A stretch of 52,357 bases of DNA, taken from positions 1-52,357 of the forward strand of contig JACZWL010000019.1 of NCBI GenBank assembly GCA_022572185.1, written 5' to 3'. A model generated the notes under the pieces. That model did not search any database, had not been told where the DNA came from, and was given only the letters and a program-made list of their open reading frames with translations. This stretch comes from Pseudomonadota bacterium. GTDB lineage: Bacteria > Pseudomonadota > Gammaproteobacteria > Steroidobacterales > Woeseiaceae. Of the stretch, positions 1,666 through 34,705 are shown piece after piece (within the stretch, counting starts at the first letter, position 1; the number at the start of each line of letters is the position of its first letter). The translations under genes and the position numbers were made by a program.

Positions 1666-1698
1666 GAATGTAACGCGAATGTAACGCAGATTGCGTTA
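1666..1698 (-). promoter_or_regulatory. Tandem-repeat operator upstream of the RHH/ParC-like pair
   Basis: GAATGTAACGC occurs twice back to back (1666-1676 and 1677-1687). It is followed by TGCGTTA at 1692-1698, the inverse complement of TAACGCA. The array lies 16-48 bp upstream of the ribbon-helix-helix start codon. RHH dimers bind short repeated sites with a period near 10-11 bp, so this is a plausible autoregulatory operator. It also lies about 140 bp upstream of the kelch gene on the other strand. Confidence 0.5.
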
Positions 1699-26554: not shown

Positions 26555-27196
26555 ATGATCCGCTACCGTTTGCCACAAACTCTGTTCTGCTGCTGTGTTG
26601 CGCTTGGTCTGGCGCTCGTCGTGCACAATGCCAGTGCGCACGGAAGCGTGGGCCCCGACGAAGACCTGTGCCTGATCAAAATCGGCTACCTCACGGCGCA
26701 TTTCAAAATTTATCTGCCGCGGACGCGTCAGCGGGAGGAGTTCTGTGAAGACGTGCCGGAAGCAACCGAGACCGTGTTTGTAATGGAGTATGTGCACAGC
26801 AGCCTTGGGAAAATGCCGATCGACTTTCGCATCATCCGGGACGTAACCGGACTGGGCCGCTTCGTCAAGTGGCAGGATGTGGCGCTGATCGAGTCGCTCG
26901 AGGGAGCTACCGTGTTTTATCAGCCGGCCATTATCGAGCCGGATGTATTTACGATCGTTCAGCAATTTGACGAGTCCGGTTGGTACATCGGGATCGTCAC
27001 CGCGCTACCTCAGGATACGGACAAGATTTACACTGCGGTTTTTCCGTTCAAGGTTGGTTTCACGGGCTTCGGCTACTGGCCGTTTTTCATTGGACTGATG
27101 ATCCTCGTTCAGCTCCATTACTGGTATATGAATGGATCATTGACGCGTTGGCGCGAATGGCGGAATAAACGCTCAAATGTCGTCTCGGAGATGTGA
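26555..27196 (+). CDS. Exported, C-terminally anchored protein with a predicted N-terminal histidine
   Basis: The 213-residue product has a signal peptide ending NASA, so signal peptidase would leave His29 as the first residue (HGSVGPDEDLCLIKIG). The exported domain has two cysteines (DLCL and EEFC) about 30 residues apart and another His in YLTAHFKIYL. One membrane segment near the C-terminus (YWPFFIGLMILVQLHYWYM) is followed by a basic tail. A free N-terminal His after an AxA site is how CopC and related copper proteins bind metal, so copper binding is a reasonable guess. The family is not named to my knowledge. It leads a three-gene operon, 1 bp before the YtkA/FixH-like gene. Confidence 0.6.
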   Translation: MIRYRLPQTLFCCCVALGLALVVHNASAHGSVGPDEDLCLIKIGYLTAHFKIYLPRTRQREEFCEDVPEATETVFVMEYVHSSLGKMPIDFRIIRDVTGLGRFVKWQDVALIESLEGATVFYQPAIIEPDVFTIVQQFDESGWYIGIVTALPQDTDKIYTAVFPFKVGFTGFGYWPFFIGLMILVQLHYWYMNGSLTRWREWRNKRSNVVSEM

Positions 27197-27197
27197 C

Positions 27198-27662
27198 ATG
27201 GCGAGTGGCCTGCGGAGCGCCGGTGTTCGCTTATGCTCGAGAGTGTTTTTTCGACACTTGACCGCGTTGGTGCTCATGGTGGCGTTACTTGCTGCCTCAA
27301 TAGCCGAGGAAAACCAGAGCGAGTCCGCTGACAACGGGGTTTGGATTTCGCAGTCTGGTCTCTTTAAGGTGGGTTATGAGAGTCAGCAGCATCCGATAGC
27401 GATCAACCGGATGCATAGTTGGGTGCTGCATGTGGCAACGGCTGACGGCCAGCCCGTCGCGAACGCCGACATTTCGTTGACAGGTGGCATGCCGGCACAT
27501 GATCACGGTCTGCCGACCAGTCCCCGGATGACGCAATATTTGGGCAACGGTGAATACCTGATTGAGGGCATGCGTTTTCACATGAACGGCTCCTGGGAAA
27601 TTACGATCACCATCAGCACAGCTGGTAATCGCGACACCGTAGTCATCCTCCTGGAACTGTGA
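27198..27662 (+). CDS. YtkA/FixH-like periplasmic protein
   Basis: The 154-residue product has an uncleaved or cleaved N-terminal hydrophobic segment (LTALVLMVALLAASIA) and one beta-sandwich domain. That domain has the YtkA/FixH pattern: INRMHSWVLHVATADGQPVA, NADISLTGGMPAHDHGLPTS, PRMTQYLGNGEYLIEGMRFH, then MNGSWEITITI. The spaced Met and His residues (GGMPAHDHG and GMRFHM) recall copper-chaperone-like sites. GGAG 8 bp upstream fits ATG 27198, which follows the previous stop by one base; an earlier ATG at 27177 overlaps that gene. Its stop overlaps the GTG of the di-heme protein gene (GTGA), so all three genes are tightly coupled. Confidence 0.7.
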   Translation: MASGLRSAGVRLCSRVFFRHLTALVLMVALLAASIAEENQSESADNGVWISQSGLFKVGYESQQHPIAINRMHSWVLHVATADGQPVANADISLTGGMPAHDHGLPTSPRMTQYLGNGEYLIEGMRFHMNGSWEITITISTAGNRDTVVILLEL

Positions 27663-28996
27663 CCTTGGCCAAAGGAGTGAACAGGGGAAACAGGCTTGCA
27701 AGGCTCATTGGTCTCGCGGCCATAGCGGCATTGGTCGCCTGGTGGTTCAACCGAACGGTCGATCCTTCGCCCTGGACCGAGATCGAGACGGAGATGCTGC
27801 GCTCGCTCTGGATCGGCAGTCTGCCGCCGTTGGCCCCCGATCCGTCGAATGCCATGGCGGATGACCCGCGTGCGGCGAAGCTGGGTCAGCAATTATTTTT
27901 CGATCAAAGGCTCAGCGCCAACGGGCGGATCGCCTGCGCGACCTGCCATCAGCCGCAGCGCCGTTTCACGGACGGGCGGGCCAGGGGTCAGGCGATAGGG
28001 ACCTCAAAGCGTAATACGCCAAGCATCGTCGGAACCGCGCACAGTCCGTGGCTCTACTGGGATGGCCGCAAAGACAGCCTGTGGTCACAAGCCTTGTCGC
28101 CCCTGGAAGACCCGAACGAGCATGCCGGCACCCGCATGCAATACGTGCGGCTCATTGCCACAGACTCGAGCTATCGAGCAGCCTATGAGGCGTTGATCGG
28201 GCCCTTGCCCGACCTGTCGGACCGAAGCCGGTTCCCGGACGCCGCGGCTCCCGTTGCAGAGCCGCAGTTGCACGCCGCATGGCAGGCGATGACCACCCAT
28301 GATCGGGAACTCGTCAACAGGATATTCGTGAATATCGGCAAATCGATTGCGGCCTATGAACGACTTCTCATGCCAGGCCCGTCACGTTTCGATGCTTATG
28401 TTCAAGCCGTGCTGGATCGGGATGAGGCCGCTCAGCACGCAACGTTCAGCGACGACGAAATAATGGGTTTGCGCCTCTTCATCGGCGAGGCTAATTGCAC
28501 GCAATGTCATAACGGACCGCTCTTCACCAACTTCGAATTTCACAACACGGGCGTCACCACCTTTCCGAGTGAAGTGCCTGATAAAGGCCGCATCGTTGGC
28601 GTGCGCAGTGTGAAGTCGGATCCCTTCAATTGCCTGGGCGCCTACAGCGACGATCCGGCAAAAGACTGTGCCGAACTGCGTTTTACCCGCACCGGACCCG
28701 AGCTGATTGGCGCAATGCGGACGCCTTCGTTGCGAAATCTCGAGGGGACCGGTCCCTATATGCACAAGGGCCAAATGGCGTCACTGGCGGCGGTACTCGA
28801 TCACTATAATCGGGCCCCGCTTGCGATGATTGGACACAACGAGGCGAAGCCTCTCAAGCTAAACCGACGTGAACGCATGCAGCTTGAGAATTTTCTCAAG
28901 ACCCTTGCGGCCCCCTTGGCGACACCGGCCGAGTGGCTTGGAGCTCCTGCCGATGACGACGCCAGGCTCGCCGTACACGCCGGTTCAGCACCCTGA
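27659..28996 (+). CDS. Di-heme cytochrome c peroxidase / MauG-family protein
   Basis: The 445-residue product has an N-terminal anchor (LARLIGLAAIAALVAWW) and two c-type heme sites: CATCH at 93-97 and CTQCH at 280-284. Family marks include LGQQLFFDQRLSANGRIACA, RNTPSIVGTAHSPWLYWDGR, and RTPSLRNLEGTGPYMHKGQM with the downstream Met/His region. Members either reduce peroxide or, like MauG and MbnH, oxidise tryptophan or tyrosine residues in a partner protein. It starts with GTG at 27659, overlapping the YtkA-like stop. The tight operon with two exported proteins favours a partner-modifying or metal-linked role over plain peroxide defence, but that is inference. Confidence 0.85.
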   Translation: MTLAKGVNRGNRLARLIGLAAIAALVAWWFNRTVDPSPWTEIETEMLRSLWIGSLPPLAPDPSNAMADDPRAAKLGQQLFFDQRLSANGRIACATCHQPQRRFTDGRARGQAIGTSKRNTPSIVGTAHSPWLYWDGRKDSLWSQALSPLEDPNEHAGTRMQYVRLIATDSSYRAAYEALIGPLPDLSDRSRFPDAAAPVAEPQLHAAWQAMTTHDRELVNRIFVNIGKSIAAYERLLMPGPSRFDAYVQAVLDRDEAAQHATFSDDEIMGLRLFIGEANCTQCHNGPLFTNFEFHNTGVTTFPSEVPDKGRIVGVRSVKSDPFNCLGAYSDDPAKDCAELRFTRTGPELIGAMRTPSLRNLEGTGPYMHKGQMASLAAVLDHYNRAPLAMIGHNEAKPLKLNRRERMQLENFLKTLAAPLATPAEWLGAPADDDARLAVHAGSAP

Positions 28997-29023: not shown

Positions 29024-31258
29024 CTACACGGAAATTGCGGGGAATGAGACTCTGAATTCCGCTCCCGGCTCCTGGTTGATCACGTCCACTTTGCCATTCA
29101 TTGCCACGCTGAGCTGATGGACGATGGCCAGGCCAATGCCTGTGCCGACCGTTTCTCTCGTGAGTTCGCTTTCTGCGCGGTAGAATAACTTGAAGATTTT
29201 CTTCATCTGGTTCCTGGAAACGCCGGGGCCGAAGTCTCTTACAGCGAACATGACTTTGTTGTCGCTGGTAAGTTTACTGGTGATGCCGATGCGTTTTTCT
29301 TTTGCACCTTTCGAGAACTTGATCGCATTATCGACGAGGTTGATGATGATCTGGGCGAAGCAGTCTTCGTCGATGTTGATGGTCGCTTTGTCTGCTTGTT
29401 CGTCTTTCTGCAACTCGAGCTCGAAGCCGGCGCGTTGTACCTGGCTCGAGATCTTCGATTCGATCTGGTTCATCAGTTCGCCGACCGTGACGGGCTGCAA
29501 GTCGAATTGTGGTTCGTTTCGGGTGATATTGGCCAGCTGCAGTACGTTCGAGATCAATCTCGTCAGGCGCTCGCTCTCATCGTGTATGAATTCATAATAC
29601 TGTTGCTGTTTCTCGGGCTCTGCCCAGCCTTCCTTGAGCATCTCGCCATACATGCGGATCGAGGTCAGGGGTGTCTTCAGTTCATGGCTGACCGCTGAGA
29701 CGAAATCCTGCTGTTGCCGGGCCAGGCTAATTTGGCTCAGGCCCAGGCGATACAGAATAAAAAAGCCGCCGAGAAATACAATCGCGAGTACGAGCGTGAG
29801 CCAGCCGATAACCGTGGCGCCGGGCCCGGGAGGCAGGCCGTTGATGCTGTAAATCAGCTCGAGGCTATCCAGTGGTGCGGATAAGCGGTTGCGGTAAAGC
29901 AGGGCGCCGTCGAATGCTTGAGAACTGTTGGGATAATCAGAATACCGCTTGCCGGTGAGCGTGTGGATGACGTCATCCTGGTAGGCGACGATCAGGTTAC
30001 TCATGGCAGAGAGTCCGGTCTCGTTAAAGCGAGTGTCGAAGGCGCCGTGAATAAAAGTCTCCTTGTCGATCAGGAGTCCCTGGATGTAGCGCTCGCCCTC
30101 GCGCCAGACCTTGCGGAAAAGCACGAAGTGGCCGCTGTCGAGCAGGCTGAACTCCAGCGGGTCGATCTCGCTCTCGAAGGTACTAATACGCAGATCTGCG
30201 GGCCCTGCCAGGCTGCTGACCGGCCGCCGCGCAGATACCGTCAGCCCGACGGGTTCGGATTCCGGCAATGAGATCTGCTCTCTTCGTTTCATTCTGCCGG
30301 GGGCGAGGAGGCGTTCGTCGTCCCTGATTGATCCTGCAGTTCGCGATCGCTCGGCAACTTCACTTTTCTTTTGATAGGCGGCATCCAGCTTGAGGTCGGC
30401 GACTTTGCCGAGCGTGTTGAGTCGTTCTTTGCTCTCGAGGGTGCCAACCATGCTTGCATCGGCCAGTGTGCCGGCCGCGTATTCATCGTCCGAACTCTTT
30501 CTCGGGCTGTTCAGCTCATCGAAGACCGCCTGGCTATACAGCTCGTTTTGTTTCGGGGCCGGTTCCTCAGGCATGGCGTAGAGTTTGTCCACGGCATCTT
30601 TATCATCGACGGTCTCGCTGCCGAGTTGTGCAGTGACTTCTGCTATTTGTCGCTGCCGGTCCTCGTCAGTGTCAGCCTCTTGTTCAGCTTCAGCTTCGTC
30701 CGAAGCGGCCTTGGGGGTTGCAGGCGAAGAGGCAAGCCTTCGTCTCACGCCCGTCGCCTGGTATTGAACAAGGCGGTTGTCGCTCAGGATGTCCTGAATT
30801 CTATGCGCCAGTTGCAGCCGTCGTTCGTACTCGTCTTCGCCGATGCCAAACGTTAGCGGGTCGGCAGTACTCTTTGGCAAAAGCGGCGTGGAGAAGTCCC
30901 CTTCGGTGCCGACCTGGAAGTAGCCGATCACGCCGGGCAATTCCTGGGTGACCGGAAATTCAGACAAAGGCGAGCGCTGCACCAGGTTGGCGCTGGGGTC
31001 GCCGGTGACGATTAGAAATGTGTAGTCGGCGAAAGAGCGGGCTTCGGCCGTGTTGATCCTGTCGACCAGGCTTGCATCCATGCGCTTGGTGAGTTCCTCC
31101 GCCATGCCCCGGTATTGATGAAAGGCTTCCCATTTGAGCTGGCTGTAGGCCTGCCAGATTAATACAGCGGTGGGGATGGCGAGTGCCAGGAAAAAGACAG
31201 TCAACAGTATCTTCAGACGGTCTTTATCGAAGCCCTTGATGAGGGTTTTGGGCAGCAT
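29024..31258 (-). CDS. Sensor histidine kinase with a very large periplasmic region
   Basis: The 744-residue kinase has TM1 at about 17-36, then some 450 residues outside the cytoplasm. These include a charged, low-complexity stretch (KAASDEAEAEQEADTDEDRQ region) between two more ordered parts. TM2 is near 485-508 (VIGWLTLVLAIVFLGGFFIL). The kinase core follows: FVSAVSHELKTPLTSIRMYG with the phospho-His, the N box IIINLVDNAIKFSKG, G1 DFGPGVS and G2 GTGIGLAIVHQLSVAMNGK. Catalytic motifs are complete. It begins 4 bp after the response-regulator stop, so the pair is one operon, divergent from the PspA/VWA genes, whose state it may control. Confidence 0.88.
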   Translation of the reverse strand: MLPKTLIKGFDKDRLKILLTVFFLALAIPTAVLIWQAYSQLKWEAFHQYRGMAEELTKRMDASLVDRINTAEARSFADYTFLIVTGDPSANLVQRSPLSEFPVTQELPGVIGYFQVGTEGDFSTPLLPKSTADPLTFGIGEDEYERRLQLAHRIQDILSDNRLVQYQATGVRRRLASSPATPKAASDEAEAEQEADTDEDRQRQIAEVTAQLGSETVDDKDAVDKLYAMPEEPAPKQNELYSQAVFDELNSPRKSSDDEYAAGTLADASMVGTLESKERLNTLGKVADLKLDAAYQKKSEVAERSRTAGSIRDDERLLAPGRMKRREQISLPESEPVGLTVSARRPVSSLAGPADLRISTFESEIDPLEFSLLDSGHFVLFRKVWREGERYIQGLLIDKETFIHGAFDTRFNETGLSAMSNLIVAYQDDVIHTLTGKRYSDYPNSSQAFDGALLYRNRLSAPLDSLELIYSINGLPPGPGATVIGWLTLVLAIVFLGGFFILYRLGLSQISLARQQQDFVSAVSHELKTPLTSIRMYGEMLKEGWAEPEKQQQYYEFIHDESERLTRLISNVLQLANITRNEPQFDLQPVTVGELMNQIESKISSQVQRAGFELELQKDEQADKATINIDEDCFAQIIINLVDNAIKFSKGAKEKRIGITSKLTSDNKVMFAVRDFGPGVSRNQMKKIFKLFYRAESELTRETVGTGIGLAIVHQLSVAMNGKVDVINQEPGAEFRVSFPAISV

Positions 31259-31262
31259 GGCG

Positions 31263-31970
31263 CTAATCTGCCGTCAGCAGCCGGTAACCGGCACCGCGTA
31301 CCGTGATGAGGCCCGCCGGTTCCTTGGGGTTGGTCTCGATCTTGCGCCTGAGTTTCGCAATATGGATGTCGACCGTTCGTGTCTCTATTTCGAGATTTCT
31401 AGCATAACCCCATACTTTTGTTAATAATTCTTCTCTCGACACGGGCCTTGCCGAGTTAGCCGCGAGGTAACTCAGGATCTCGATCTCGCGCCGGGTGAAG
31501 GTCAGTGGCTCAGCACCGTTCTGACCGGTGAGGTTCTCGGTATCTATTTGCACGTTATTGCTGAGGCTGATGGTCCTGGCCTGCTCGATGCCGATCCGCG
31601 ACCGTCGCAGGACCGCTTCGATGCGAAGTACCAGCTGCTGGATGGAGAAGGGCTTGGCGACATAGTCATCGGCGCCGAGTTTCAAGCCCTGGATGATCTC
31701 TTCATCCGAGGTCTTGGCGGTCAGCATGATGATCGGCTGCTCGCGGTCTCTGGCTCGTATCTCGTTACAGATCTCATAGCCATCCATGCCGGGCAGCATG
31801 ATGTCGAGCAATATCAGATCGAACTTGCCCGTCAGTGCTTTCTCGAGGCCCTCCGGTCCGTTGTCGGCGCTGTCCACGTCGTAGCCGTGGAAGACGAACA
31901 CGTCGATGAGGCCGGAGCGGATGGCCTCTTCATCTTCCACGATCAGAATGCTGATCGATCGCTTATTCAC
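31263..31970 (-). CDS. OmpR-family response regulator
   Basis: The 235-residue protein has a receiver domain (acidic residues E12, D13; phospho-Asp56 in LILLDIMLPGMDGYEIC; KPF lysine in ADDYVAKPFSIQQL) and a C-terminal winged helix (LTFTRREIEILSYLAANSAR, SREELLTKVWGYARNLEIET, VDIHIAKLRRKIE, TVRGAGYRL). It binds DNA when phosphorylated by the downstream kinase. The 168-bp gap to the oppositely oriented pspA-like gene is a natural place for its binding sites. The start ATG has AT-rich sequence upstream and no clear repeat that I could assign as an operator. Confidence 0.9.
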   Translation of the reverse strand: MNKRSISILIVEDEEAIRSGLIDVFVFHGYDVDSADNGPEGLEKALTGKFDLILLDIMLPGMDGYEICNEIRARDREQPIIMLTAKTSDEEIIQGLKLGADDYVAKPFSIQQLVLRIEAVLRRSRIGIEQARTISLSNNVQIDTENLTGQNGAEPLTFTRREIEILSYLAANSARPVSREELLTKVWGYARNLEIETRTVDIHIAKLRRKIETNPKEPAGLITVRGAGYRLLTAD

Positions 31971-32138
31971 GCAGTCTAGGCTAGCAGTTTGCGACAGTCA
32001 GATCAGCGATCGCTTGTAAAGTTCTTGTAAATTCTGTGCGGCAGGTTTTACCCGTTCGTGTCTTAAGTGTGCTGGCGTTCCTCTCTACCATTTGTGCCAT
32101 TGAAATATTTTGTCCAGCAAACGGAAGGAGACAACATC

Positions 32139-32687
32139 ATGGCACTTATCAACCGCATATCGCGGCTTTTCCAGGCGGACTTTCACGCCGTTTTGGATCA
32201 GATCGAAGAGCCCGAGCAGCTTCTAAAGCAAGCCATTCGGGAGATGGAAGACGATCTGGTCGAGACCGAGCAGCGCATAAGAGTGTGTGCGCATGACCAG
32301 GAAGCGCTGGCGACACGCAACAGCGAAATCGACAGCAAGCTTTCTGAGATCGACGAGGAACTGGACCTTTGTTTCGAATCGGAGAAGGACGATCTGGCCA
32401 AAGGCCTGATCAGGAAAAAGCTCGAGGCAGCGCGGCTGTCGAAGCAGCTGAGTGCAAAACACAGCGCTTCTGAGAAGTACCTGACCGAGCAGCGCGTCAT
32501 GCTCGATGAAAACCGGGCAACGCTCGAGGGCCTGCGGCAAAAAGCAGAGCTGTTTGCACAACGCGCACCGGCAGGCGGCACATCGGAATTCGATGATATC
32601 GCCTGGATGGCACGGGAGCTGCGAGTGGGCGACGACGAAGTGGAAGTCGCTTATCTCCGTGAGAAAAACGCAAGGAGTCAGTCATGA
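32139..32687 (+). CDS. PspA/IM30-family protein
   Basis: The 182-residue product starts MALINRISRLFQADFHAVLD, then QIEEPEQLLKQAIREMEDDL, the PspA opening with its amphipathic membrane-binding helix and the conserved ExPxxxLxQxIREME motif. The rest is a long coiled coil typical of ESCRT-III-like PspA/Vipp1 proteins that bind and remodel stressed inner membrane. At 182 residues it is shorter than E. coli PspA (222). GGAAGGA 8-16 bp upstream supports the start. It shares an ATGA overlap with the membrane-protein gene that follows. No PspF-type activator or PspBC is present; the divergent two-component system is the likely regulator. Confidence 0.82.
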   Translation: MALINRISRLFQADFHAVLDQIEEPEQLLKQAIREMEDDLVETEQRIRVCAHDQEALATRNSEIDSKLSEIDEELDLCFESEKDDLAKGLIRKKLEAARLSKQLSAKHSASEKYLTEQRVMLDENRATLEGLRQKAELFAQRAPAGGTSEFDDIAWMARELRVGDDEVEVAYLREKNARSQS

Positions 32688-33250
32688 AGCGGCCTGGCTT
32701 TTTTCACGGCGTTGTCGTGGCCGCGGTTCTGGGCTTCTTCGCCAGTGCCATCGTTGCCACCCTCACGCCATTCCTTGGCCTCGGTGCCGTCGTTCGCCTG
32801 GTCATTCCCTTGCTGGGGCTGGCTTACCTCCTGTACTTGCTCAATCGCACGGCAGAACGGGTAGGGCGCGTCACCACGTTAACGCTTTGGACAGCAATGG
32901 CAGCAGTCACCTGGTGGATTGCACCACCGTTACCGCTGTATCTGATGGTCCATGTCGGCACCATCTGGCTTGTTCGCTCCCTTTATTTCTACTCGGGTGT
33001 GATACCGGCACTGATGGATCTCGGTTTGGGTGCTTTGAGTATCTCGGCCGCGGTCTGGGCGATCACCCGTTCGGGCAGCGTGTTCCTCGCGACCTGGTGT
33101 TTCTTCCTGGTGCAGGCGCTGTTTGTGGCGATTCCACCAGCAGTGCAGCGGAAAGCGAAGCCGGAACAGAACACACCGGCCGGCAACGAGAACTTCGAGC
33201 GCGCCAGACGTCAGGCCGATGCGGCTCTTGGCCAGCTGTTCACCCAATAG
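32684..33250 (+). CDS. Five-to-six-TM membrane protein linked to PspA
   Basis: The 188-residue product has hydrophobic segments at about 8-28, 32-52, 65-80, 84-103, 110-130 and 134-152, then a soluble tail (NENFERARRQADAALGQLFT). I do not recognise a named family. The start overlaps the pspA-like stop (ATGA, 32684-32687), and the VWA gene begins 40 bp downstream, so the three genes form one operon. It may be the membrane docking partner for the PspA-like protein, as PspB/PspC or LiaF-type proteins are in other lineages; that is inference from context. Confidence 0.65.
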   Translation: MKRPGFFHGVVVAAVLGFFASAIVATLTPFLGLGAVVRLVIPLLGLAYLLYLLNRTAERVGRVTTLTLWTAMAAVTWWIAPPLPLYLMVHVGTIWLVRSLYFYSGVIPALMDLGLGALSISAAVWAITRSGSVFLATWCFFLVQALFVAIPPAVQRKAKPEQNTPAGNENFERARRQADAALGQLFTQ

Positions 33251-33290
33251 AAATTTTTACTCCTTATATATACAACGAGAGGACATCATC

Positions 33291-34481
33291 ATGAAAAGCA
33301 AAATCTTAGGGCTTGCCCTGTTCGCACTAACCCTGGGTGCGGTGATCTATTACCCGTCACTCAAAGCCAAGCATATTGACCCTGCTCCGATCGAGCACAT
33401 CGTTGCACCTGCTGGCATCCCCAAAATAGATGTCGTGTTTGTGCTCGATACGACCGGCAGCATGAGTGGCCTGATTCAGACCGCGAAGGACAAGATCTGG
33501 TCAATCGCCACAACGATGGCATCGGCACAGCCGACGCCCGAGATTCGCATTGGTCTGGTTGCCTATCGTGACCGCGGTGATCACTATGTCACGAAAGTAG
33601 TCGATCTGTCCGATGACCTGGATTCCGTTTATGCCACGCTGATGGACTTTCAGGCGGATGGCGGCGGCGACACGCCCGAGAGCGTGAATCAGGCGCTGTA
33701 CGAAGCCGTGCACAACATCTCGTGGAGTCAGGACTCGCAGGCCTACCAGGTTGTGTTCCTGATCGGCGATGCACCACCGCATATGGACTATCAGGGCGAG
33801 GTGCAGTACCCGGAGATCGTGATGGCTGCCTTGGAGAAAGGCATTGTGATCAACACGATTCAATGCGGTGAAATTCCGACGACCGTCGGGCCCTGGACGC
33901 AGATCGCGAGCCTCGGCCACGGCAAGTTCTTCCAGGTAGGCCAGGCGGGCAGCGCGGTTGCTATGACGACCCCGTTTGACGCAGAGATCGCCACGTTGTC
34001 GGCCAGGCTTGACGACACGCGGCTGTACTACGGCAGCAAGGAAGAAAAGGAAAAAATGGCGAGAAAGGTCGCGGCTACCGACAAACTGCATAAGAGTTCA
34101 TCGGTTGAATCCCGTGCACGTCGCGCCGCGTTCAATATGTCGGCAGCCGGCAAGGCGAATCTCCTGGGTGAGAATGAACTGGTCGACGGCATCACCAGCG
34201 GGACCATCAAACTCGACGAACTCGACGAGGCTGAGCTGCCCGCGGCGCTGAAGCCTATGGCGCCGGCGGAACAGGAGGCGTACGTCGCACGACTCGCTGG
34301 CGAACGGGCTGACCTGCAGCGGCAGATACGTGAACTCGCAGACGACCGCGACAGCTATATCTCCAAGAAGGTCGAAGAAGCCGGTGGCTACAAAGACTCA
34401 CTGGATCAGAAGATCTATGACGCTGTCAGCGTGCAGGCTGGCATAGTCGGGCTCGAGTACAGCGACGGTCCGGAATACTGA
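33291..34481 (+). CDS. Exported von Willebrand factor A domain protein
   Basis: The 396-residue product has an N-terminal signal or anchor (KILGLALFALTLGAVIYYPS) followed by a VWA domain. The MIDAS metal site is complete: DTTGSMS at about 53-59, the Thr in GGGDTPESVNQAL, and the Asp in VFLIGDAPPHMDY. Residues 270-396 are charged and helical (KEEKEKMARKVAATDKL, AEQEAYVARLAGERADLQRQ), giving a coiled-coil tail. GAGAGGA lies 8-14 bp upstream of the ATG. VWA proteins of this kind often work with stress or assembly machines. Here it is the third gene of the PspA operon and is followed by a clear terminator. Confidence 0.8.
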   Translation: MKSKILGLALFALTLGAVIYYPSLKAKHIDPAPIEHIVAPAGIPKIDVVFVLDTTGSMSGLIQTAKDKIWSIATTMASAQPTPEIRIGLVAYRDRGDHYVTKVVDLSDDLDSVYATLMDFQADGGGDTPESVNQALYEAVHNISWSQDSQAYQVVFLIGDAPPHMDYQGEVQYPEIVMAALEKGIVINTIQCGEIPTTVGPWTQIASLGHGKFFQVGQAGSAVAMTTPFDAEIATLSARLDDTRLYYGSKEEKEKMARKVAATDKLHKSSSVESRARRAAFNMSAAGKANLLGENELVDGITSGTIKLDELDEAELPAALKPMAPAEQEAYVARLAGERADLQRQIRELADDRDSYISKKVEEAGGYKDSLDQKIYDAVSVQAGIVGLEYSDGPEY

Positions 34482-34506
34482 TCGACGGCGTATCGAGATC
34501 AATATA

Positions 34507-34535
34507 CGGGGTCGCAAGCGGCCCCGTTTTCGTTT
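34507..34535 (+). terminator. Rho-independent terminator after the PspA/VWA operon
   Basis: CGGGGTCGC-AA-GCGGCCCCG forms a strong hairpin (one T-G pair), followed by TTTTCGTTT. It lies 26 bp after the VWA stop. Confidence 0.85.
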
Positions 34536-34677: not shown

Positions 34678-34705
34678 TTGACTACGGGGTTTTGCTGTAT
34701 ATAAT
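34678..34705 (+). promoter_or_regulatory. Sigma-70 promoter of the cold-shock gene
   Basis: TTGACT (34678-34683), a 16-bp spacer and a perfect TATAAT (34700-34705) would start transcription near 34712. That leaves an untranslated leader of about 149 bases before the ATG at 34861, similar to the long thermosensing leader of E. coli cspA. Confidence 0.75.

Follow-up and report, generated by a model that had tools for sequence, protein, structure and literature searches.

What does a short PspA protein do beside what appears to be a two-component system of its own? The question is raised by a 52,357-nt stretch of DNA from a Woeseiaceae bacterium of the Gammaproteobacteria (assembly GCA_022572185.1, contig JACZWL010000019.1, positions 1 to 52,357; hereafter the window). 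Genes for a sensor histidine kinase and an OmpR-type response regulator are on one strand, and genes for a short PspA/IM30-family protein (pspA), a membrane protein (tm) and a protein with a von Willebrand factor type A (VWA) domain (vwa) are on the other (Table 1). The initial annotation, made from the letters alone, had described these five genes and their divergent arrangement, and searches with Pfam and NCBIfam models agreed with its names. We consider it fairly probable that they form a self-contained envelope-response module, in which the kinase and the regulator drive their own genes and the pspA–tm–vwa operon through a conserved box.

Genome contigs were scanned for the VWA protein, and 31 loci were obtained from records named Woeseiaceae, Hahella, Methylococcales, Chromatiales, Ectothiorhodospiraceae and other gamma-proteobacteria. 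All five gene types were present in 29 loci, with pspA, tm and vwa always on the strand opposite to that of the kinase and regulator genes. The remaining two begin within the operon at contig ends, and contig ends also cut some genes in the 29. The pspA and tm genes overlap by 4 bp in the window and in 28 of the 29 loci, and by 14 bp in L024. The two gene sets are 150–400 bp apart in 27 of the 29; in L006 and L011 they are separated by about 2.3–2.6 kb of other genes, including those for a laminin-G-like protein and a DUF1538 protein.

An even class-wide draw of 369 genomes was also searched. The kinase sensor occurred in 23 genomes and the membrane protein in 24. For the VWA protein the count was 23 at 200 bits or more; five others of the 28 genomes with VWA matches had best scores no higher than 114 bits and were left out. 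The sensor and the membrane protein occurred together in 22 genomes and all three proteins in 21, every time on a single contig. Fisher p values for co-occurrence were 5e-32 to 7e-30, which the kinship of the genomes makes too small. Among the exceptions, the matches were at a contig end in G342 and G410 and on a 5-kb contig in G231, and G217 had a solitary VWA gene only. In G092 (L072), the kinase, regulator and membrane-protein matches were in pieces and no VWA gene was found, a pattern that may reflect decay of the whole module or sequencing error. The system is sparse, since the sensor was found in only 2 of 398 genomes of a phylum-wide draw, one of them a partial match. Cultured hosts are Hahella ganghwensis and Methylomicrobium. 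The grouping of the five genes is far beyond chance, and the system is coherent but patchy, occurring in scattered gamma-proteobacteria. Neighbourhood conservation had been named as a check by the initial annotation, and by both counts the two gene sets co-occur.

The two sets could be neighbours through descent only, with no joint function. The five proteins share much the same tree, and their tree distances correlate at 0.88–0.97; these parallel distances were not used as evidence because they show shared descent only. The linkage, on the other hand, holds at 34–50% protein identity between families, and the position of the box, described below, also bears on this explanation.

Between the two gene sets lies a direct repeat with the general form TGTAAM-N5-KGTAAA. 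Searched in exact form as TGTAAMNNNNNKGTAAA, it occurs once in the 3.14-Mb genome, and the reversed control gave 0 matches. The strict box was present in 28 of 30 intergenic regions (the 29 loci and the window); the other two (L004 and L007) have TGTAAG, a one-letter variant. For the intergenic alignment, the near duplicates L003, L030 and L070 were dropped, leaving 35 of 38 rows. The GTAA columns are invariant by construction because the alignment was anchored on the pattern; the TTTTAC, TGTCT and −10-like columns were free. After the box, TTTTAC, TGTCT and a −10-like TAxxxT follow at constant distances, and the presumed −10 element reads mostly TAGACT or TAxxAT in relatives. A scan for sigma-70 promoters gave no match between the two gene sets; its sole match was at 34678–34705. 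When one mismatch was allowed, a second box match, TGTAACGCGAATGTAAC, was found in the window at 1669–1685 (+), and 2 of 100 shuffles gave as many.

An extended box was searched in 60 relatives, which overlap with the 31 loci (for example, L006 is from G027), so the two are not independent sets. There were 15 matches in 13 genomes and 0 with the reversed control. Eleven were upstream of the operon VWA gene on the same contig and strand, one adjoins the kinase gene in G001, where a different contig carries the operon, and three were upstream of an unlinked VWA gene (G009, G011 and G021). Most of the matches were assigned to genes by their coordinates, and the sequence was read for some. The extended box occurred in 13 of the 18 genomes with the kinase versus 0 of the 42 without it; the other five kinase genomes have one-letter variants. 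As far as sequence tells, the operon is very probably under the adjacent regulator, a link at which the initial annotation had guessed and which the conserved box supports.

The box can also be followed where the genes have come apart. The operon is parted from the regulator gene in L006, L011/L069, L067, L068 and L084, and one box lies upstream of each set; the box on the pspA side has TTTTAC, whereas that on the regulator side lacks it. In L071, the regulator-side box is present and no operon was seen on the 7-kb contig. The unlinked VWA genes belong to a second class (motifs DxSxSM, TNGGxE and AGNE), a member of which takes the operon place in L055–L058. All seven unlinked second-class genes in relatives, and one in L059 from another family, have the box 106–133 nt upstream of the open reading frame (ORF) start, four of the eight boxes being strict and four one-letter variants; all seven genes of the relatives are in kinase genomes. 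A loose box pattern also matched in L053, L054 (beside a solitary VWA gene, on the other strand) and L082, and these matches were left out of the counts. The two VWA classes swap the operon and unlinked sites between lineages, both under the box (L055–L058 versus L050 and L075–L079); the exact joins in the VWA tree are unsure because its branches are long. A phospholipase A1-like gene (L050:3516–4562, +; 27.2 bits, cut-off 27) directly follows the second VWA gene, in G009 only. A phospholipase as a constant partner was rejected, as none lies beside the other second VWA genes.

Taken together, the box pattern in genomes, the split loci and the unlinked VWA genes make regulation by the adjacent system, self-regulation included, much the likeliest explanation, although the box (GTAAA-N6-GTAAA) fits the CpxR consensus GTAAA-N4-8-GTAAA in the excerpted text of PMC5063474 and could therefore be a site for a different regulator of the OmpR type. 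The box might then serve CpxR or another general regulator of the envelope, with the adjacent two-component system controlling other things or being just another target. CpxAR shares with our locus an OmpR-type regulator and a GTAAA direct repeat, but the locus kinase sensor is unrelated to it in NCBIfam. The CpxR model NF008199 scored 132.7 bits on the regulator, below its cut-off of 341. A general regulator would be expected to have many sites, whereas the exact box is single in this genome; all 15 extended matches in the relatives are at this system, with 0 in genomes lacking the kinase; and the box remained with the regulator gene after the operon had moved (L067, L068, L069, L071 and L084). 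We regard control by such a regulator as quite improbable. As both gene sets keep boxes after separation and the unlinked VWA genes bear them too, neighbourhood through descent only is very improbable indeed.

The short PspA protein scored 53.2 bits with PF04012 (cut-off 33.9) and 50.5 bits with TIGR02977, the model for phage shock protein PspA proper, which is below the cut-off of 242.95. Residues 1–135 match solved PspA and Vipp1, with the N-terminal region and the hairpin kept, and the C-terminal end is a conserved motif of its own in the alignment of relatives. PspA proteins form polymers in membrane repair and are relatives of eukaryotic ESCRT-III. PspF, PspB and PspC were not found at the locus in the ORF list or with Pfam, in line with the initial annotation. 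This absence did not extend to the genome: contig C4 carries pspF opposite pspA-pspB-pspC-pspC (L066, C4:42500–49000). The C4 PspF scored 483.3 bits (cut-off 443.55), and the C4 PspA (228 aa) covers PF04012 positions 1–217. The two successive pspC genes in L066 differ from each other. Because the genome has this classical set, the locus is an additional PspA module and no substitute for the classical system, and its description as an alternative envelope-stress system had to be given up. Like PspF-PspABC, it joins a PspA-family protein with a membrane partner; unlike it, it has two-component instead of enhancer-binding control. A second PspA thus sits beside a full classical system, yet under what would be a private two-component switch with a single exact site.

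No Pfam or NCBIfam model matched the membrane protein. Hydropathy and positive charges pointed to six helices, and its charged tail, residues 152–188, is conserved. The VWA protein scored 50.3 bits with Pfam VWA_4 (cut-off 27). Its structural model had a pLDDT (predicted local distance difference test) of 80.9; besides the VWA fold it showed a helix at the N terminus and a helical C-terminal part, one helix of which spans 39 residues. The model matched VWA structures, and a PDB sequence search with the protein returned nothing. D53, T55, S57, D127 and D160 are invariant in 27 aligned operon VWA proteins. The metal site, which had been described as intact, is present, but not in its textbook form: at position 128, where a second-loop Thr is usual, these proteins have T, G, S or N, and the invariant acid there is D127. 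A proteobacterial dedicated sortase system was considered and rejected. TIGR03788, a marine proteobacterial sortase target, was the sole NCBIfam model to match the VWA protein, but the match was limited to the VWA fold and scored 24.1 bits versus a cut-off of 551.65, and the kinase sensor had no NCBIfam match.

The 500 N-terminal residues of the kinase matched no NCBIfam model at E up to 10. Its sensor model (mean pLDDT 67.7) contained a long first helix and two folded halves with a disordered insert between them, followed by the second transmembrane helix at residues 479–500. VIA-align gave Z scores of 9.9 with CqsR, 9.2 with KinD and 8.8 with PcrK, all dCache-type sensors, and 10.2 with one integrative chemoreceptor model. 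With Foldseek, the best match was weak (E 0.036), and none was found at E <0.001. The periplasmic domain thus looks like a dCache domain interrupted by a disordered loop, although this is not proved, and the predicted fold points to the kinase itself as the sensor. The initial annotation had called the sensor partly disordered; the disorder is there in the model, as a loop inside a folded domain. Within the loop, islands near Q243-F246-L249 and R325-E327-L331 are conserved in 25 aligned sensors.

The likely fold of the sensor raises the question of what is sensed. The locus might respond not to membrane damage but to a nutrient or metabolite, as a surface or secretion device of the dCache kinase, the VWA protein and the membrane protein, with the PspA-like protein as a scaffold. 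The dCache domains of the closest structural matches (CqsR, KinD, PctA and Mlp37) bind small molecules, and a classical Psp set for membrane damage is already in the genome. Against such a device, no gene for a transporter, an enzyme or secretion is constantly nearby: the unit that stays together consists of the five genes only, and the genes flanking the second VWA gene differ among most genomes. PspA homologues under two-component control, as in the Lia system, answer envelope damage in the part of PMC9239133 used here. We consider the nutrient device rather unlikely.

In the envelope-response module that we propose instead, the kinase would receive a periplasmic signal through its dCache-like sensor and phosphorylate the regulator. 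The regulator would bind TGTAAM-N5-KGTAAA and activate its own genes and the pspA–tm–vwa operon, and in some relatives also the unlinked second VWA gene. The short PspA protein would assemble on the inner face of the inner membrane, where the translationally coupled six-helix membrane protein would hold it through its cytoplasmic tail. In the periplasm, the membrane-anchored VWA protein may use its metal site to bind a protein or envelope ligand, and it may also feed back on the sensor. By analogy with LiaI-LiaH (PMC9239133, in part) and from the gene coupling, PspA is probably at the membrane via the membrane protein, with the VWA protein outside. Besides the fit of the box to the CpxR consensus, three findings weigh against this proposal. 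The PspA protein matches PF04012 only as far as position 142 of the 220 in the profile and shows no similarity to the final third of the model, so polymer formation cannot be assumed. The dCache-like Z scores (at most 9.9 for a solved sensor) are only moderately above the level of unrelated models. Solitary class-1-like VWA genes in L053 and L054 lack a proper box.

The VWA protein might have a more specific role as the switch of the kinase. It would dock in a metal-dependent manner on the islands of the sensor loop and keep the kinase off until periplasmic damage or a ligand released it, and the two VWA classes (DTTGSM and DxSxSM) would be interchangeable receptors that set the kinase response. 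This idea is speculative, and we think it unlikely. If true, the LiaF-LiaS brake would have a VWA-gated counterpart in Gram-negative bacteria, and the VWA protein and the kinase would be analogous, as a pair, to the eukaryotic proteins that combine VWA and Cache domains.

Among known systems, the closest in mode of action would be Lia of Bacillus (LiaRS, LiaI and LiaH), to which the module adds a periplasmic VWA protein. LiaR and LiaS belong to another regulator type, which is LuxR-like. Lia and the locus both join a PspA homologue and a membrane protein under a two-component system, which in Lia answers envelope stress (PMC9239133 and PMC11237479, each in part). LiaF and Toastrack, in contrast, have no counterpart at the locus: no such Pfam family and no LiaI homologue was matched, and the membrane protein is outside known families. 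PspA two-component systems of Actinobacteria and Firmicutes also have pspA beside a membrane kinase and a regulator, but the partners there are PspAA, PspC or Toastrack in the excerpts of PMC11237479. The terms "vwa" and "von Willebrand" are missing from the main texts of these two PSP surveys (PMC11237479 and PMC9239133). In the literature searched, no description of the five-gene system was found; subscription papers and preprints were outside the search, and it may have been mentioned before. As a PspA module controlled by a two-component system it is of a known kind, and its two partners, the membrane protein and the VWA protein, are new. As a very small, clean circuit, the module makes the role of a shortened PspA, its membrane recruitment and the periplasmic VWA contribution addressable.

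Table 1. Features of the five-gene locus, with positions in the window
Feature	Position	Strand	Description or basis
Sensor histidine kinase	29024..31258	-	744 aa; Pfam HisKA + HATPase_c
Kinase motifs			SHELKTP (524), NLVDNA (640), DFGPG (675), GTGIGL (705)
dCache-like periplasmic domain, second half (residues ~362-478)	29825..30175	-	AlphaFold model, VIA-align matches
Disordered loop in sensor (residues ~169-361)	30176..30754	-	mostly pLDDT <50
dCache-like periplasmic domain, first half (residues ~40-168)	30755..31141	-	AlphaFold model, VIA-align matches
OmpR-type response regulator	31263..31970	-	235 aa, GTG start; Pfam Response_reg + Trans_reg_C
Direct repeat TGTAAA-N5-TGTAAA, presumed regulator box	32015..32031	+	11-bp step; only exact TGTAAMNNNNNKGTAAA match in the genome
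TTTTAC element, pspA side	32046..32051	+	fixed spacing from box; conserved in relatives
TGTCT element, conserved	32059..32063	+	intergenic alignment
Presumed -10 of pspA promoter, TACCAT	32086..32091	+	column conservation; assignment inferred
Short PspA/IM30-family protein	32139..32687	+	182 aa; PF04012 over residues 4-143
Membrane protein	32684..33250	+	188 aa; probably six transmembrane helices, conserved charged C-terminal tail, no known family
VWA protein	33291..34481	+	396 aa; N-terminal hydrophobic helix, helical C-terminal part
Terminator-like hairpin, 3' of VWA gene	34506..34527	+	consensus match only

Taken alone, the hairpin downstream of vwa is weak evidence, since the region had 7 terminator-like matches versus 5.0 in shuffles. 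A defence system was rejected: PADLOC matches reached 23.5 bits at most and fell on the ATPase part of the kinase and on coiled coil. Convergent with the kinase gene is a gene for a di-haem cytochrome c peroxidase/MauG-like protein (27659–28996, +), a relative of which, a weak one, was near L021 alone among the related loci. A YtkA-like protein (PF13115) is encoded directly before it (27177–27662, +), and this gene overlaps an ORF of 226–243 aa without a Pfam match. A few kilobases from the operon is a gene for a bactofilin (PF04519; 37931–38617, −), a polymer-forming cytoskeletal protein.

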